64,000 bases of DNA. It comes from Deltaproteobacteria bacterium (GTDB lineage Bacteria > Desulfobacterota > Desulfobacteria > Desulfobacterales > Desulfosarcinaceae). Both the position numbers and the translations under genes were made by a program. The notes under the pieces are model-generated. The model was not told the origin of the DNA, made no database searches, and was given only the letters and a program-made list of their open reading frames with translations. Each line of letters opens with the position of its first letter. Positions within the stretch are counted from its first letter, which is position 1. The stretch spans positions 1 through 64,000 of the forward strand of contig JAKALP010000031.1 in NCBI GenBank assembly GCA_021824175.1. The letters are read 5' to 3'. Positions 40,813-60,252 of this stretch are shown in pieces.

Positions 40813-42254
40813 GCGGCGCCCAAGGATTGATCTTTGATGAACCCCTGCTGTGGGAGATGGGCTCGCCCGGCCGCGTGGCTTATGCCATGCCCTCCCAGGA
40901 TGTGCCCGCCCAGCCCGTGGACGCAACCTTGACCGGTCCCGGCCCCGATTTCCCGGACCTGAGCGAGCCGGAGATCGTGCGCCACTACACCCGCTTGAGC
41001 CAGTGGAACTTGAGCGTGGACAGCGCCATGTACCCCCTGGGATCATGCACCATGAAGTACAATCCCAAAACCAACGAGCGCCAGGCCGGCCTGCCCGGCA
41101 TCGCCCAGGCCCATCCGCTGCTGCCCACTGCTTTGCGCCAGGGTTTGCTGCGGCTGATGTTCGACCTGGAGAAATTCCTGGCCGAAATCACCGGCCTGGA
41201 TGCGGTCACGCTGCAACCCGCGGCCGGCGCTCAAGGCGAACTGACCGGCATGCTGATCTTCTACGCGTATCATGCCCGGCAAGGCCGGCCGCGCACCAAG
41301 ATCCTGATTCCCGATACGGCCCACGGCACCAACCCGGCCAGTGCGGCCCTGTGCGGCTTTCAGGCCGTGCATGTGCCCTCGGGTCCGGACGGTATTCTGG
41401 AACCCCAGACCGTCGCCGCCCTGATGGACGACGATACCGCCGGCATCATGGTGACCAACCCCAATACTTTGGGCTTGTTTGAAAGCAATATCCGCCAGGT
41501 GGCCGGCATCGTGCACCAGCGCAACGGTCTGGTCTATGCCGACGGCGCCAACATGAACGCCGTGCTGGGAGTAGTCGACATGGCGGCCATGGGAGTAGAT
41601 ATCCTGCATCTGAATCTACACAAAACCTTTTCTACTCCCCACGGCGGCGGCGGCCCCGGCGCCGGTCCCGTGTGTGTTGCCCAAAAATTGGCTCCCTATC
41701 TGCCCGTGCCGCGGGTAGTACGCGCCGGCGATCAATATCTATTGAGCGATGACGCTCCCCTGTCCGTGGGCAAACTGCACGCCTTTTACGGTAACTTCGG
41801 CATGCTGGTGCGCGCCTACAGCTATATCCTGAGCCTGGGCCCGGAATTGCACAAAGTCAGTCAACTGGCCGTGCTCAATGCCAACTACATCAAAGCAGGC
41901 CTCAAAGATCACTATCATCTGCCCTATGACCGGACCTGCATGCACGAGTGCGTCTTCAGCGACAAACAGCAGGTGGCCCACAAAGTGTCGGCCCTGGATA
42001 TCGCCAAACGGCTCATCGACTACGGTTTTCATCCGCCCACCATTTACTTCCCCCTGGTGGTCAGCGGCGCCATGATGATCGAGCCCACCGAAAGTGAATC
42101 CAAGGAGACATTGGATCACTTCATCGAGGCTCTGCGCGCCATTGCCAAAGAGGCCGAAACCGATCCTGATCTGCTGCACCAGGCCCCGCACATTGCCAAG
42201 CTGCGGCGCCTGGATGAAGTACAGGCGGCGCGCAAACCGCAATTGGCGGGCTGA
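40809..42254 (+). CDS. gcvPB: Glycine dehydrogenase (decarboxylating) subunit 2
   Basis: 481 residues. PLP Schiff-base Lys in LNLHKTFSTPHGGGGPG. Other motifs: MYPLGSCTMKYNPKTNE, LQPAAGAQGELTGML and DTAHGTNPASAALCGF. Catalyses glycine decarboxylation and transfer of the aminomethyl group to lipoyl-GcvH. Its ATG overlaps gcvPA. No gcvT or lpd follows in the window, so these must lie elsewhere. Confidence 0.95.
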   Translation: MSGAQGLIFDEPLLWEMGSPGRVAYAMPSQDVPAQPVDATLTGPGPDFPDLSEPEIVRHYTRLSQWNLSVDSAMYPLGSCTMKYNPKTNERQAGLPGIAQAHPLLPTALRQGLLRLMFDLEKFLAEITGLDAVTLQPAAGAQGELTGMLIFYAYHARQGRPRTKILIPDTAHGTNPASAALCGFQAVHVPSGPDGILEPQTVAALMDDDTAGIMVTNPNTLGLFESNIRQVAGIVHQRNGLVYADGANMNAVLGVVDMAAMGVDILHLNLHKTFSTPHGGGGPGAGPVCVAQKLAPYLPVPRVVRAGDQYLLSDDAPLSVGKLHAFYGNFGMLVRAYSYILSLGPELHKVSQLAVLNANYIKAGLKDHYHLPYDRTCMHECVFSDKQQVAHKVSALDIAKRLIDYGFHPPTIYFPLVVSGAMMIEPTESESKETLDHFIEALRAIAKEAETDPDLLHQAPHIAKLRRLDEVQAARKPQLAG

Positions 42255-42340
42255 TGAATTGGGAAAAACCTAATTTGACCTCGCATAAAGCTACCAAGGC
42301 ACATAGAGATTATATTCTTCTTTTCTTTATCTTTTCGTAC

Positions 42341-42410
42341 CTTATCCGTGTTATCCGTGCCATCCGTGGTCATTTTTTTTACCACGGATAATACTGATTT
42401 CACGGATGGG
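42341..42410. repeat. ATCCGTG-family hairpin, copy 2
   Basis: Three ATCCGTG units then ACCACGGAT complements; the loop contains a run of eight T. It lies between gcvPB and lipB, so lipB may be partly separated transcriptionally. Confidence 0.7.
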
Positions 42411-42454
42411 CAGCTTGTTGGATGGAGAATAAATTCTTCACCTTGGAGAGATTC

Positions 42455-43138
42455 ATGCGTTTCGCTTATCTTCTCGATTTACCGCTGACCGAATACTCCA
42501 ATGCCCTGGCATTGCAACGCGCCGCGGTCCAAGCCCGCCGCGAAGGCCGTTTGGATCGCGACCTGATCCTCATGCTCGAACACCCGCCGGTATTTACTCT
42601 GGGCCGACGCGGGGGGCGGGAGAATCTGCTGATATCTGAAGAAGAACTTCGCAAAAAGAATATCGCCGTGGTGCCCATTGAACGCGGAGGCGACATCACC
42701 TATCACGGCTCCGGCCAACTGGTAGTCTACCCCATCGTCGACCTCAATGCCGCTCACATCAAAGTGGTGGCCTTTGTCGATCTGCTGGAGCAGGCCATGA
42801 TCCGCACCGCGGCCCATTGGGATATCCCGGCCCGCGGCGACGCACAGCACCGCGGCGCCTGGGTAGAACATCGCAAATTGGGCAGCATAGGCCTCACCGT
42901 GCGGCACGGCATCAGCTTTCATGGCCTGGCCTTAAATGTCACTACCGACCTGACCCCTTTCACCTGGATCAATCCCTGCGGCATCCAGGCGTGTGAAATG
43001 ACGACTTTGTCACGCGAAGCCAATCAATCAGTGAGCGTGGAGGAAGTACGAAAACAGATGGCAGACCAATTGGGAGGTCTGCTGGGTGCGACATTTAAGT
43101 CGATTAACATTGAATCAGCAAACGCCTATATTCGGTAA
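42455..43138 (+). CDS. lipB: Lipoyl(octanoyl) transferase
   Basis: 227 residues from the ATG that follows GGAGAG. LipB signatures: PVFTLGRRGG, RGGDITYHGSGQLVVYPIVDL, active-site Lys in HRKLGSIGL and Cys in TWINPCGIQ. Transfers octanoyl from acyl carrier protein to GcvH. Proximity to gcvHP fits that use. An upstream start at 42422 is less likely. Confidence 0.95.
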   Translation: MRFAYLLDLPLTEYSNALALQRAAVQARREGRLDRDLILMLEHPPVFTLGRRGGRENLLISEEELRKKNIAVVPIERGGDITYHGSGQLVVYPIVDLNAAHIKVVAFVDLLEQAMIRTAAHWDIPARGDAQHRGAWVEHRKLGSIGLTVRHGISFHGLALNVTTDLTPFTWINPCGIQACEMTTLSREANQSVSVEEVRKQMADQLGGLLGATFKSINIESANAYIR

Positions 43139-43455
43139 AAAATGGAGCTCTTATTTTTCAAAATGCACTGCATAATAACCTGGATGCCCGCCTGCGCGGG
43201 CATGACGAAAAGGAGTGTTAATTATAAAATTCGGGAGGTGAATAATCACTGATGAAAATTCTTCTATTTGCAGACTGAGAAATTCATTCACTCGGATAGT
43301 GCAGCATCGCGTAAAGTCATTCCCGCGAAGGCGGGAATCCAGAATGCCAAGGGCTTAAGATTTGGAGACCTGTTCATCACAGAACGGCAAGATATAACAC
43401 CCAGCTCGATTCCGTAACAAATCAACAGTGACCGAGCTTTTTAGCTGAAATACCA
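43139..43455. other. Spacer holding the upstream composite palindrome
   Basis: 317 bases without gene, mostly occupied by the composite repeat at 43180-43342. Confidence 0.6.
43180..43342. repeat. Composite inverted pair, GTCATTCCCGCG family, upstream copy
   Basis: CTGGATGCCCGCCTGCGCGG... (43180-43206) and GTCATTCCCGCGAAGGCGGG... (43316-43342) are 27-base near-complements (three mismatches), each a palindrome in itself. 163 bp in all. Lies 113 bases before the GIY-YIG start. Confidence 0.8.
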
Positions 43456-43752
43456 ATGCCAAAACAATTCTACGTCTACATCTTAGCCAGCCAACGCAAC
43501 GGTACTTTATACACGGGAGTAACCTCAGATCTTACTCAACGCGTCTTCCAACACCAAAAGGTATTTGTACCAGGATTTACATCAAAATATGCTATAAAGA
43601 TGCTTGTCTGGTATGAAGTACATGAAACCGCTGAAAGCGCCATTCAACGCGAAAAACGCATTAAGAAATGGCGACGTGAATGGAAACTGAAACTGATTGA
43701 AGAGCACAACCCTGAATGGAGCGATTTATATCCTCGGATTGCGCACTTGTAA
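43456..43752 (+). CDS. GIY-YIG nuclease-like protein
   Basis: 98 residues. Motif FYVYILASQRNGTLYTGVTS contains the Y-I / Y-G pair of the GIY-YIG active site, Arg in LTQRVFQH, Glu in ESAIQREKRIKKW, and the C-terminal NPEWSDLYP of the small stand-alone UPF0213-like group. It interrupts the lipB-lipA pair. Composite palindromes lie on both sides, the downstream one starting 4 bases after the stop. Confidence 0.87.
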   Translation: MPKQFYVYILASQRNGTLYTGVTSDLTQRVFQHQKVFVPGFTSKYAIKMLVWYEVHETAESAIQREKRIKKWRREWKLKLIEEHNPEWSDLYPRIAHL

Positions 43753-43755
43753 TGA

Positions 43756-43934
43756 CTGGATGCCCGCCTGCGCGGGGATGACCTTAACAACCGCTGTGCT
43801 AAGTTTTATACGTTCATCAAATTTTGAGAATCAAAAGACCACAATTGAAATTAAGCTATTCTCGCACCGAAGCCTCCATTTAAACGAATAGCACAGCACC
43901 TCGTACCGTCATTCCCGCGAAGGCGGGAATCCAG
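43756..43934. repeat. Composite inverted pair, GTCATTCCCGCG family, downstream copy
   Basis: CTGGATGCCCGCCTGCGCGG... (43756-43782) and GTCATTCCCGCGAAGGCGGG... (43908-43934), same order and similar size (179 bp) to the upstream copy. Internal sequences share weak similarity near their right ends (ATAGTGCAGCA versus ATAGCACAGCA). Confidence 0.8.
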
Positions 43935-43989
43935 AAGCGAACCAGCACAATGCCTCGCAAAGGCATAGAAAATAGGGCCGTGCAAAATT

Positions 43990-44862
43990 ATGATAACATC
44001 ATCCCCCAAACCCCCCTGGCTAAAAGTCCGCATCCCCAGCGGTCCCCAATACGAACAAACCCGCCGGTTATTGCGGGAGGGCAAACTACATACTGTTTGC
44101 CAGCAGGCTTGCTGCCCCAACATCTTCGAATGCTTCTCCAAGCACACCGCCACCTTTTTGATCCTCGGCGCTCACTGCACCCGTAATTGCACCTTCTGTG
44201 CGGTCACCCAAGGCCCGCTGTTGCCGCCTGATCCCGATGAACCCCACCGGGTGGCCCAGGCCGCGGCTGAACTTGGCTTGAAGTATGTCGTGGTCACCTC
44301 CGTCACCCGCGACGATCTGCCCGACGGCGGCGCCTCCCAATTCTCCACCACCATAAGCGCCTTGCGCCAACAGATTGATGAGGTGCGTATCGAAGTATTG
44401 ATCCCCGATTTTCAGGGAAACCATGAAGCACTAATGAAGGTGCTGGAGGCCAGGCCTGATATTCTCAACCACAACATCGAAACCGTCCCCCGCCTCTACT
44501 CCACCGTGCGGCCTCAAGCCGTGTACCAGCGTTCTCTGGCACTGCTTGCCGAATCCGCCGCCCAAGCCCCCCACATCCCTGCAAAATCCGGCCTGATGCT
44601 GGGTCTGGGCGAAACCGATGCTGAGATTCAGCAAACCTTGGTCGATCTGCGCAAGGCAAACTGCCGCCTGCTCACCCTGGGCCAATATCTCCAACCCACC
44701 ACAAAACACCATCCCGTGGTCCGCTACGTGCCGCCCCAGGAGTTTGACCACTGGCGCCAAACCGCACTAAATATGGGCTTCCAAGAAGTCGCCGCCGGCC
44801 CGTTTGTGCGCAGCTCGTACCGGGCCGAGAAGAGCTTCAATCAATTGTCTCATGAGGGGTAG
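43990..44862 (+). CDS. lipA: Lipoyl synthase
   Basis: 290 residues. Auxiliary cluster CX4CX5C in VCQQACCPNIFEC, radical SAM CX3CX2C in HCTRNCTFCAVTQG, and the C-terminal Ser ligand in VRSSYRAE. Inserts two sulfurs into octanoyl-GcvH. Full set of ligands present. Separated from lipB by the GIY-YIG gene with its repeats, which presumably entered an ancestral lipBA pair. Confidence 0.96.
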   Translation: MITSSPKPPWLKVRIPSGPQYEQTRRLLREGKLHTVCQQACCPNIFECFSKHTATFLILGAHCTRNCTFCAVTQGPLLPPDPDEPHRVAQAAAELGLKYVVVTSVTRDDLPDGGASQFSTTISALRQQIDEVRIEVLIPDFQGNHEALMKVLEARPDILNHNIETVPRLYSTVRPQAVYQRSLALLAESAAQAPHIPAKSGLMLGLGETDAEIQQTLVDLRKANCRLLTLGQYLQPTTKHHPVVRYVPPQEFDHWRQTALNMGFQEVAAGPFVRSSYRAEKSFNQLSHEG

Positions 44863-45197
44863 TTGGAACTTAGAACAGTAGAATTTATCAATATGCCACT
44901 GAGCACCCGGAGAGCGCTCCCTCTCCTATTAGGGAATGAGCTGATTTTCGGGATATAGATTTTGAGCAAGGACGCCAAGGTGTGTGAACTCAATGTCATT
45001 AACTTATGCAATTTCGCTATTCTTCGAATGGTGCGCAAAGCGCACCCTACAATTCATGCACACGCTGTGGCAGTAGGGTGCGCTTTGCGCACCGTCGTTA
45101 GCCAATCAAGACTAAAGTTAACGGCATTGTACGTAAAATTTAACAACAATCACATTTCTTCTTTGCTTTAGCTTCAGCGTCACCATCTTTGAAACGC
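44863..45197. other. Gene-free stretch with a GTAGGG palindrome
   Basis: 335 bases between the convergent lipA and immunity-like genes. Holds the repeat at 45030-45093; AT-rich after 45110, where the lower-GC secretion cargo genes start. Confidence 0.6.
45030..45093. repeat. Palindromic repeat, GTAGGGTGC family, copy 3
   Basis: GGTGCGCAAAGCGCACC... (45030-45050) and its exact 21-base complement (45073-45093) with a 22-base spacer. Orientation of the units is opposite to copies 1 and 2. Confidence 0.85.
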
Positions 45198-45815
45198 TTA
45201 CTTATCTTTTTGTTTATTTAGCAAAGATCGCGCCTCCTTTATTGTTTTAATATCGGAATCCTCGAATTTACTAGTTAGCTCTTCATCTATTGTCAAAGAA
45301 GGTTTGTTTAGATCCATTTTTAAGACTATGGGCAAGGTAAAATGTTCAGAGCTTGGAGGCGTGGCAAGATAGAGAGCAATTATTTTAAGACTGCCGTCAG
45401 GGTAATAATCAGAAAAAGAGATTGCCTCTATATATGTACACATCCAAAATCGCTTGTCATCTTTTGGGCCAAGCACATCGATGGCGTCCACAATATTTTT
45501 ACTGTCATCAAATAATAGTACAGAGCAGGTTGAATCAGGCGGCAGATATCGTATCGAAGAGATTAAATAATAGTTTTTCGTTTGATAATGAATTTGAAAA
45601 TTTTGGTTATCATCTGGTTTAAGGGTATCATCATTCAAATTTTTCAATTTTGTTTTACTGATTTGATCGTCAATTAATTTTTTTGCTAATTCCTTACTAA
45701 TGGAAGATATCTTAATTTTTGAATTTTTAGTTTCCGCCTCGGACAAGTCTGCAGTGCACCAGAACAAGATAAATAAAAGCAAACATATTGTAGCTCTATT
45801 CCTTAAATTTTTCAT
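45198..45815 (-). CDS. Exported protein, probable immunity partner of the muramidase
   Basis: 205 residues. Signal peptide [19 protein letters not shown], so periplasmic, where a cell-wall hydrolase would act. Mature part mixed alpha/beta without recognised family. Its ATG lies 20 bases inside the end of the muramidase gene, the close coupling typical of effector-immunity pairs. GC is visibly lower than that of the neighbours. GAAGGGGG precedes the ATG. Immunity role is inferred from position and export. Confidence 0.6.
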
Positions 45816-58514: not shown

Positions 58515-58640
58515 GAACAAAAGCGCTATATCCAGTGATATTGATTACGGCCGGGCAGCATTATGTGCTCCGTACTACTAACTCTAAAGCTTTTATCTAC
58601 TTGCCAAGATCCTTTTGTCTCTGCTAATTGTTCCATTTAT

Positions 58641-58693
58641 CAGTGTAATCCGTGATATCCGTGGTAAAAAAATTAATCAAGGATGGCACGGAT
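58641..58693. repeat. ATCCGTG-family hairpin, copy 5
   Basis: CAGTGTAATCCGTGATATCC, GTGGT, then GGATGGCACGGAT. Slightly degraded on the right. Confidence 0.7.
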
Positions 58694-58820
58694 GATTTTG
58701 CACGGGTCCCCGCCTTCGCGGGGATGACTCAATGACTGTTATGCTATCATCGGCGGTTCCTAATACCTTATTTCTTCCACCTTCAACCTTATACCTTCCA
58801 CCTTCCACCCTCTGTCTGGG

Positions 58821-59900: not shown

Positions 59901-60252
59901 TTCTACTCACCTGATAAAGTTGAACTCGCACAAAGACGTAAAGCCATAGAGAATCTAATTTTCTTCCTTAAGGCAAAGGCGCAGAGTTTGCGGAGGTGCG
60001 CAGAGGTTTTTCTTCAATCAATACCTTTGCCTCCCTCCGCGAACTCTGCGGTTTAAATAACTACTCTCAGTCGAAAATGCTCGATGTTTGTTAACGTCAT
60101 TCCCGCGCAGGCGGGAATCCAGACCATCATAAATTTACTGGTTCCCCGCCGCAGTTTATCCCGTACTTATGCGGGGCGGGGATGACGTTAACACCCGTTG
60201 TACTACTTCTCACTGGTTTAACACTTAGCGCATATCAATAGCTCACCTACTA
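59901..60252. other. Gene-free stretch with two repeat hairpins
   Basis: Holds a CGCAGAGTTTGCGGAGG hairpin (59984-60052, related to the string that heads the DUF4197 remnant at 4170) and a CATTCCCGCG-type pair (60096-60186). No gene supported. Confidence 0.7.
60096..60186. repeat. GTCATTCCCGCG-family composite
   Basis: GTCATTCCCGCGCAGGCGGG... (60096-60122) with a right partner CTGGTTCCCCGCCGCAG...GGGGATGAC (60138-60186). The GCCGCAGTTTATCCCG module also occurs in the copy at 34891-34972. Confidence 0.75.

Follow-up and report, generated by a model that had tools for sequence, protein, structure and literature searches.

Introduction

Of the described systems that lie closest to the locus presented here, one is that of the RAYT or TnpA-REP proteins and their REPtrons, in which an IS200/IS605-like enzyme of the HUH type is paired with repetitive extragenic palindromes (REPs) carrying a GTAG tag; activity of RAYT on REP has been measured in vitro, and co-evolution of TnpAREP and REP has been reported (PMC8266576). 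Another is the super-family of CGTC-type REPs, to which the dRS3 elements of Neisseria belong, defined by a YGTC tag, a stem of 8–9 bp starting with AT, a loop of 4–5 bases, a CCA tail and the frequent occurrence of dimers with short spacers (Di Nocera 2013, PMC3733652). In its main text that survey reports no dedicated transposase for the CGTC REPs, leaves it open whether an enzyme makes them and which one that is, and contains the string “GIY” zero times (PMC3733652). Here we analyze a stretch of 64,000 nucleotides (“the window”: positions 1 to 64,000 of contig JAKALP010000031.1, assembly GCA_021824175.1, a deltaproteobacterium of the Desulfosarcinaceae) in which a gene for a 98-residue GIY-YIG protein, set between lipB and lipA, is bracketed by palindromes of the CGTC type. 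The comparisons reported below make this small nuclease a strong candidate for the enzyme spreading or maintaining CGTC REPs.

The locus resembles the RAYT systems in that a low-copy gene for a small nuclease lies between inverted REPs whose type recurs elsewhere in the host genome, and in that enzyme and REP vary together. It differs from them in its enzyme and tag, GIY-YIG and YGTC here as opposed to HUH/Y1 and GTAG there, and in that the link between protein and palindrome is drawn here from sequence comparisons. An earlier note on this DNA had drawn the parallel to REP/RAYT, and the parallel holds for arrangement, type matching and distribution among hosts; the feature shared with RAYT genes, being flanked by a kind of REP that is also scattered through the genome, is one of arrangement only, and a Pfam scan of the protein found neither the HUH motif nor the catalytic tyrosine of Y1_Tnp (PF01797). 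In our reading the REP-nuclease-REP unit operates in the manner of a REPtron, without being a RAYT.

REPs Flank One Clade of GIY-YIG Genes

Relatives of the gene were gathered in two sets: 102 loci from 395 genomes of the same phylum (103 matched places were fetched, and nine short partial matches left out), and the best 80 of 576 relatives in a scan of public genomes, for which the query alignment already contained genes seen flanked. REPs were called by a detector accepting any GTCA-stem-loop-stem-CCAG palindrome, whatever the sequence of its stem; since the detector demands a REP-like shape, the shape found at other loci is no independent result. Counting loci of at least 135 bits from both sets once each, and leaving out L114, L123, L124, L128, L134 and L154 as repeats of other loci or of the window, we obtained 118 loci of the clade. 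A REP was present within 300 bp of the gene at 107 of these and on both sides at 76, against 7/258 windows of the same geometry in the same loci; the enrichment that the earlier note had proposed to look for is therefore found beside this gene subfamily. The 3′ end of the gene has a REP at 96/118 loci, compared with 6/143 for the 3′ ends of other long open reading frames in these loci, and REP density, taken over all loci of both sets, falls from 4.8–5.5 per kb within the first 100 bp to 0–0.3 per kb past 500 bp.

The same association had been seen in a first pass over 39 relatives, where the close homologs at L002, L003, L004, L006 and L007 were also flanked by palindromes, some with other stem types; L005 had none by the first pattern and one by the later general detector, and the weaker homologs L008–L026 (E 2.4e-27 and weaker) had no palindromes except five-mismatch matches in L019. 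Flanked genes occur, among others, in Neisseria gonorrhoeae (L066), Rhizobium, Sphingomonas, Xanthomonas, Kangiella, a planctomycete (L098) and Nitrospirae, and 28 of the 54 relatives found in IMG/VR, some of them distant, are REP-flanked. In L003 (692–1985) we also observed the nuclease gene set inside an array in which REPs alternate, repeating about every 200 bp.

The association is bounded. In the phylum sample the flanked share falls with score, from 29/30 at 155 bits or more through 10/11, 4/7 and 2/16 to 0/30 at 100–125 bits (summed, 43/48 at 135 bits or more and 2/46 at 100–135 bits); among fragments below 100 bits it is 4/8. In a tree built from 176 proteins over 93 columns, leaving out loci below 100 bits (of which many are copies with frameshifts or truncations), 119 of the 132 rows on one side of a division are flanked, against one of the 44 on the other, with only 78% support for the dividing branches; the flanking label changes 11 times on this tree, compared with 47.7 when shuffled. 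Genes of the sister clade share some genomes with the flanked clade (G050, G124, G130, G384), and so provide an internal control. Judged from these sequences, REP association is confined to one GIY-YIG clade and is a property that the sister clade lacks.

The Y1_Tnp/RAYT genes were considered as the true partner of these REPs and rejected: a CGTC REP lies within 300 bp of the domain at only 2/36 loci, of which 7 come from the window genome and 29 were taken from the numerous matches in the other REP-rich genomes of a search that covered 24 in all.

The Palindromes and the Protein

We assign the palindromes beside the gene to the CGTC-type REPs, called dRS3 in Neisseria. Those of the window fit the super-family in having an 8-bp stem starting with AT, a 4-base loop, a CCA tail and an arrangement as dimers, and are in these respects, as in the YGTC tag and the short dimer spacers, the palindromes described for that super-family (PMC3733652). 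Within the window, the outer tag YGTC is found only in the two outer palindromes. Across 58 elements the base outside the tag is, on the left, C in 34, T in 21, A in 3 and G in none and, on the right, G in 38, A in 17, C in 3 and T in none; the tag is GTCA, usually with C or T before it, and the GTAG tag of RAYT-type REPs was not found. Of 19 REP sites fetched from the window genome, ten of which had been chosen for having two close palindromes, 12 are inverted dimers with spacers of 14–25 bp. More widely, the spacers of REP dimers (L361–L380, L217–L227, L233) were seen to cluster near 15 and 24–25 bp, with some at 20–23 bp, in steps of about half to one helical turn.

The protein is assigned to the GIY-YIG nuclease superfamily, and nuclease activity is predicted for it: PF01541 is its only Pfam match, at 56.6 bits against a cut-off of 22.6. 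In 120 REP-flanked proteins the positions of the catalytic Tyr, Tyr, Arg, Glu and Asn of GIY-YIG enzymes are conserved as Y8 (99%), Y19 (100%), R29 (100%), E66 (99%) and N85 (100%). These catalytic residues are kept in both clades, and the REP-flanked set is marked by G16, T17 and W76. The AlphaFold2 model (pLDDT 91.7) finds its best matches in the Protein Data Bank in UPF0213 (1zg2) and then in Slx1 chains, with TM-scores near 0.57; the likeness to UPF0213 (BH0048, EF2693) and Slx1 is one of fold, and we know of no report of UPF0213 together with REPs. In 21/22 pairs, which share loci and are therefore non-independent, dN/dS was 0.04–0.27, one pair being saturated; the gene thus appears to be under purifying selection. 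At seven loci (L035, L037, L043, L065, L071, L095 and L360) we observed that the right REP supplies the stop of the gene, the frame running to the TGA of that REP (AATGAC).

Type Matching and the REP Content of Genomes

REPs beside the gene differ in stem class, and the left and right REPs are of the same class in 69/85 cases where 21.8 are expected. When the three main stem classes are placed on the tree of flanked proteins (83 rows), they change 14 times, compared with 31 when shuffled.

The matching extends in trans. For this comparison, which asks which type is present and not whether REPs are present, 38 genomes were picked for having flanked genes, and 2 were dropped as having no typed flanking REP. 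With the flanking REPs removed, the flanking class makes up 0.848 of the remaining three-class REPs in the 36 genomes, compared with 0.508 under permutation, and 0/10,000 permutations reached so high a value; the dominant stem type of the genome is predicted by the type beside the gene in 31/36 genomes, as against 18.5 by permutation. G384 and G348 each have two stem types and two genes of the clade, one gene per type.

CGTC REPs are widespread, with the strict pattern GTCATNCCNGCNNNNGCNGGNATCCA found in 129 of the 395 genomes of the phylum, and their presence follows that of the gene. REPs of this pattern occur in 44/44 genomes with a gene match of at least 135 bits and in 85/351 others, and five or more REPs occur in 40/44 and 46/351, respectively; the counts of 44 and 40 stay the same when REPs less than 400 bp from the gene are disregarded. 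Within the 17 genera that contain both states, the difference lies in the expected direction in 14, in the opposite direction in 2 and is a tie in 1 (p = 0.002), and with flanking REPs removed 14 are in the expected and 3 in the opposite direction (p = 0.006). At a looser cut of E 1e-15, REPs are found in 61/82 genomes with a match and in 68/313 without; the 21 genomes that match at this level and have no REP pattern all score below 135 bits.

The window genome (G000; 6.07 Mb in 61 contigs) contains a single match to the gene, and has the strict pattern GTCATNCCNGCNNNNGCNGGNATCCA at 53 places (control 0) and CCCGCN4GCGGG at 105 places, compared with 30 for the reversed control.

Ends of the Unit and Sites without It

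Pairs of loci with at least 80% identity (57 in number) were used to ask where homology ends, 25 being testable in that both loci have a forward and a reverse REP (F and R) near the gene. In 7 of these 25 pairs homology starts and stops no more than 4 bp from the outer edges of the REPs, at both ends and in each of the two loci, with the left edge respected in 13 and the right edge in 15. Such pairs include L115/L116 (355 bp) and L075/L116, L116/L118 and L075/L122 (356 bp each); five of the seven fall among L075, L115, L116, L118 and L122, whose flanks have no DNA or protein in common. Complete elements measure 349–396 bp in 48/58 cases. A direct repeat of at least 4 bp adjoins 0/58 elements, where 0.18 would be expected for 4 bp; for repeats of 2–9 bp one element in 58 was found at 2 and at 3 bp and none from 4 bp upwards, and allowing offsets at 3–5 bp gave only small scattered excesses. 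The target-site duplication that is a hallmark of DDE-type insertion sequences is thus not seen in these elements.

Sites without the unit were found at several junctions. A gene X has the element on one side in one genome and on the other side in a second genome of the genus, the X–Y junction being filled in L140 and empty in L142. At the home locus, lipA was searched in 14 relatives and matched in 12. In G010 the gene occupies the same place between lipB and lipA in the arrangement F-gene-R-F, and encodes a protein 72% identical to that of the window genome; in ten relatives lipB and lipA are adjacent (−4 to 84 bp from the lipB stop to the first matched lipA codon), with no REP at the junction save a weak 24-base detector match at the lipB end in L239; and in one of the 12 there was no lipB match in the stretch. 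Azospirillum lipoferum 4B, whose homolog is WP_014249537.1, has the gene together with two REP dimers in the 617 bp that separate sufB from sufC, whereas these genes, as annotated in A. oryzae, A. ramasamyi, Azospirillum sp. B510 and A. thermophilum, are spaced by 55–129 bp with no REP (90–97% identical over common parts). In the comparisons at lipB–lipA and sufB–sufC the exact joint is not alignable.

The suggestion of the earlier note that the whole block is a mobile cassette which split lipBA stands in part. The ten relatives with lipB and lipA side by side and no gene, for which it had recommended a search, speak for the insertion; movement of the four-palindrome block as one piece is less certain, and because the gene occupies this site in G010 with a simpler arrangement, the block of the window may have grown in place.

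The Locus in the Window

Features of the locus are collected in Table 1. The gene between lipB and lipA, and the two units of two 27-base palindromes each (163 and 179 bp) that had been described around it, were confirmed at all coordinates. The two units are in part direct repeats of each other, and the inner right REP begins at the fourth base past the stop codon. With as many as 3 mismatches allowed, the pattern CTGGATNCCCGCNNNNGCGGGNATGAC has 6 matches in the window and none in 100 dinucleotide shuffles. Enclosure of the gene by an outward-tagged pair (GTCAT..ATCCAG, gene, CTGGAT..ATGAC) is also the commonest arrangement in other genomes. The window departs from it in that the inner left palindrome ends 113 bp upstream of the start codon, where 10–30 bp is typical elsewhere, and in the bases that precede the tags of its inner palindromes, which are not the usual C or T. 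An Rfam scan of positions 42000–45500 gave no match at gathering score.

Table 1. Coordinates of genes, REPs and direct repeats at the lipB–lipA locus of the window.
Feature	Position	Strand	Evidence or detail
lipB, lipoyl(octanoyl) transferase, left neighbor	42422..43138	+	NCBIfam TIGR00214, E = 2e-47
CGTC-type REP, outer left (CTGGAT..ATGAC on +)	43180..43206	-	tag CGTC; stem 8, loop 4, 0 mismatches
89-nt direct repeat flanking the gene, left arm	43256..43344	no strand	repeat family D1, 74% identity
CGTC-type REP, inner left (GTCAT..ATCCAG)	43316..43342	+	base preceding tag A
Predicted GIY-YIG nuclease, 98 aa, REP-associated clade	43456..43752	+	Pfam PF01541, E = 3.2e-15; Y8, Y19, R29, E66, N85 present
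CGTC-type REP, inner right (CTGGAT..ATGAC on +)	43756..43782	-	base preceding tag G; one stem mismatch
89-nt direct repeat, right arm	43848..43936	no strand	repeat family D1
CGTC-type REP, outer right (GTCAT..ATCCAG)	43908..43934	+	tag CGTC
lipA, lipoyl synthase, right neighbor	43990..44862	+	NCBIfam TIGR00510, E = 3.2e-117

Other repeats were noticed in the window. Just past lipA (45030–45093) there is another palindrome family, GGTGCGCAAAGCGCACC and GGTGCGCTTTGCGCACC, in two copies 47 bp apart where none is expected by chance. Stretches rich in ATCCGTG/CACGGAT, at 42345–42415 (before lipB) and at 58640–58700, look like a third dispersed repeat, the second of them adjoining a REP-like palindrome at 58702. 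At 60096–60186 lies a REP dimer whose right palindrome seems to have an extra insert of about 20–30 bases mid-palindrome, as if a small element had inserted itself into another's loop.

Discussion

The explanation we favor, with a probability of roughly 0.6, is that the clade of this gene comprises the dedicated (cognate) nucleases of the CGTC-type REPs and that REP-nuclease-REP is a mobile unit. The observed basis for it is the association, its limit to one clade, the matching of types, the empty sites, the ends at REP edges in some pairs, the lack of target duplication and the purifying selection; from these we infer cutting, movement and the direction of causation. The core unit would typically be REP(GTCAT..ATCCAG), 10–30 bp, the gene, 1–10 bp and REP(CTGGAT..ATGAC), about 355 bp in all with tags outward, and would be able to settle as a single piece at further intergenic sites; REPs occurring singly or as dimers elsewhere in the genome would be its non-autonomous counterpart, maintained or spread in trans by the enzyme. 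The protein would recognize a REP folded as a hairpin or cruciform and cut near the YGTC tag, after which host repair or replication would copy the REP, or the REP-gene-REP unit, to a new place. A structure-specific cut is favored because the nearest solved folds are those of UPF0213 and Slx1, the latter cutting branched DNA (and being partnered in eukaryotes by Slx4); the modeled likeness to Slx1 fits the cutting of hairpins or cruciforms, without proving it.

Several points weigh against this explanation. That homology stops at both outer edges in the seven pairs described, and not generally, keeps our confidence lower: in the other 18/25 it is shorter, or runs into common neighborhoods (e.g., L143/L157). 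To our knowledge GIY-YIG enzymes are hydrolytic nucleases with no strand-transfer step, so that insertion at REP-free sites would need help from the host. Linkage in cis would by itself make REP type follow the protein tree, and both the left/right match and the match to the tree could stem from it. The dominant type of the genome is mismatched in 5/36 cases (G370, G130, G086, G237, G169). No REP was detected near 11/118 loci of the clade and 26/54 of the IMG/VR relatives, and at L055, L060, L078, L098, L110 and L277 (mostly alphaproteobacterial, with L098 from a planctomycete) the gene has a complete REP dimer on each side instead of being enclosed within one. Seventeen genomes, six of them less than 90% complete, have at least 20 REPs and no match at E 1e-15; when these were searched more deeply, partial copies beside REPs came to light only in G260 and G250. 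Solo dimers, finally, do not look like internal deletions of the gene unit: compared by eye with the unit ends of the same four genomes, the spacers of 19 dimers (15 or 22–25 bp) are unlike them, one of the 20 stretches fetched (L379) being a 69-bp span.

The main rival is that REPs spread by other means and that the gene encodes a free-standing GIY-YIG homing enzyme, for which a REP dimer is both insertion site and safe haven, cut and then copied in by repair. Free-standing homing enzymes of this kind exist, and we take the Seg proteins of phage T4 to be among them; they belong to the same superfamily and have their gene set within a cognate-looking site, as the gene is set between two inverted REPs in the 58 collected elements. 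The sole PHROG match of the protein is a homing GIY-YIG family (E = 0.0025), and type matching would also be expected from target specificity. The present genes differ in residing on bacterial chromosomes, with multi-copy palindromic sites and empty sites free of REPs, and a collection of 50,697 phage records held no relative at E 1e-8; plasmid records gave 6 relatives at E 1e-20, five on records of 2.2–3.5 Mb and one on a 648-kb plasmid. We rank homing lower, as an unlikely account, on the grounds of low copy number (1–4 gene matches per genome, sister clade included, compared with REPs often in the tens and up to 202), of the gene-free sites at lipB–lipA and sufB–sufC that have no REP pair, and of REP counts that tend to be higher in genomes with the gene than in congeners without it.

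Less probable still is a domesticated repair enzyme, a Slx1-like structure-specific nuclease serving the host by clearing REP hairpins or cruciforms, with its place beside REPs being regulatory. The low dN/dS and the nearest solved folds are in keeping with this, as is the retention of the gene between lipB and lipA in G000 and G010 despite the divergence of the two proteins; it leaves unexplained the homology ends at outer REP edges and the matching of type between left and right and across the genome, and in 15 of the 17 genomes that are rich in REPs but lack a strong match, neither a copy nor a remnant was seen next to REPs. That the gene is a mere bystander, common intergenic REPs serving it only as terminators and the association being an artifact of composition or annotation, would agree with REPs being reported mostly downstream of genes (PMC3733652), but is hardly credible as the whole explanation given how rarely the 3′ ends of other genes have a REP and that genes of the sister clade, which frequently share a genome with flanked ones, lack a REP in 43/44 rows.

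Returning to the cognate nuclease that we prefer, another enzyme which meets this repeat, and which we presume to be unrelated to GIY-YIG proteins, is the recombinase of the neisserial filamentous phage Nf1. That recombinase likewise uses the CGTC REP (dRS3) as its DNA target, with the difference that the phage integrates into the repeat and is not proposed as its source (PMC3898611). Our literature search, whose coverage was mainly open-access so that prior notice elsewhere is possible, returned no title or abstract opening tying GIY-YIG to REPs and no paper pairing GIY-YIG with dRS3 or with “repetitive extragenic palindromic”; RayT and a GIY-YIG gene appear apart in one table of clade-specific genes (PMC9465073).

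A clade whose presence, position and variant type track the CGTC REPs is a concrete candidate for the enzyme left open by the 2013 survey (PMC3733652). We suggest tentatively, at somewhat less than even odds, that these units, each about 355 bp long, form a class of mobile element new to bacteria, with one GIY-YIG protein of 90–100 amino acids between two REPs, moving without target duplication and driving in trans the populations of CGTC REPs, including the roughly 700 dRS3 elements of the meningococcus. If the nuclease does act in this way, REP spreading would have evolved at least twice, with unrelated nucleases, the second system having no strand-transferring transposase; a hydrolytic GIY-YIG enzyme could then drive a repeat family, and many genes annotated only as “GIY-YIG nuclease family protein” (our scan of public genomes met at least 576 relatives) would gain a function.
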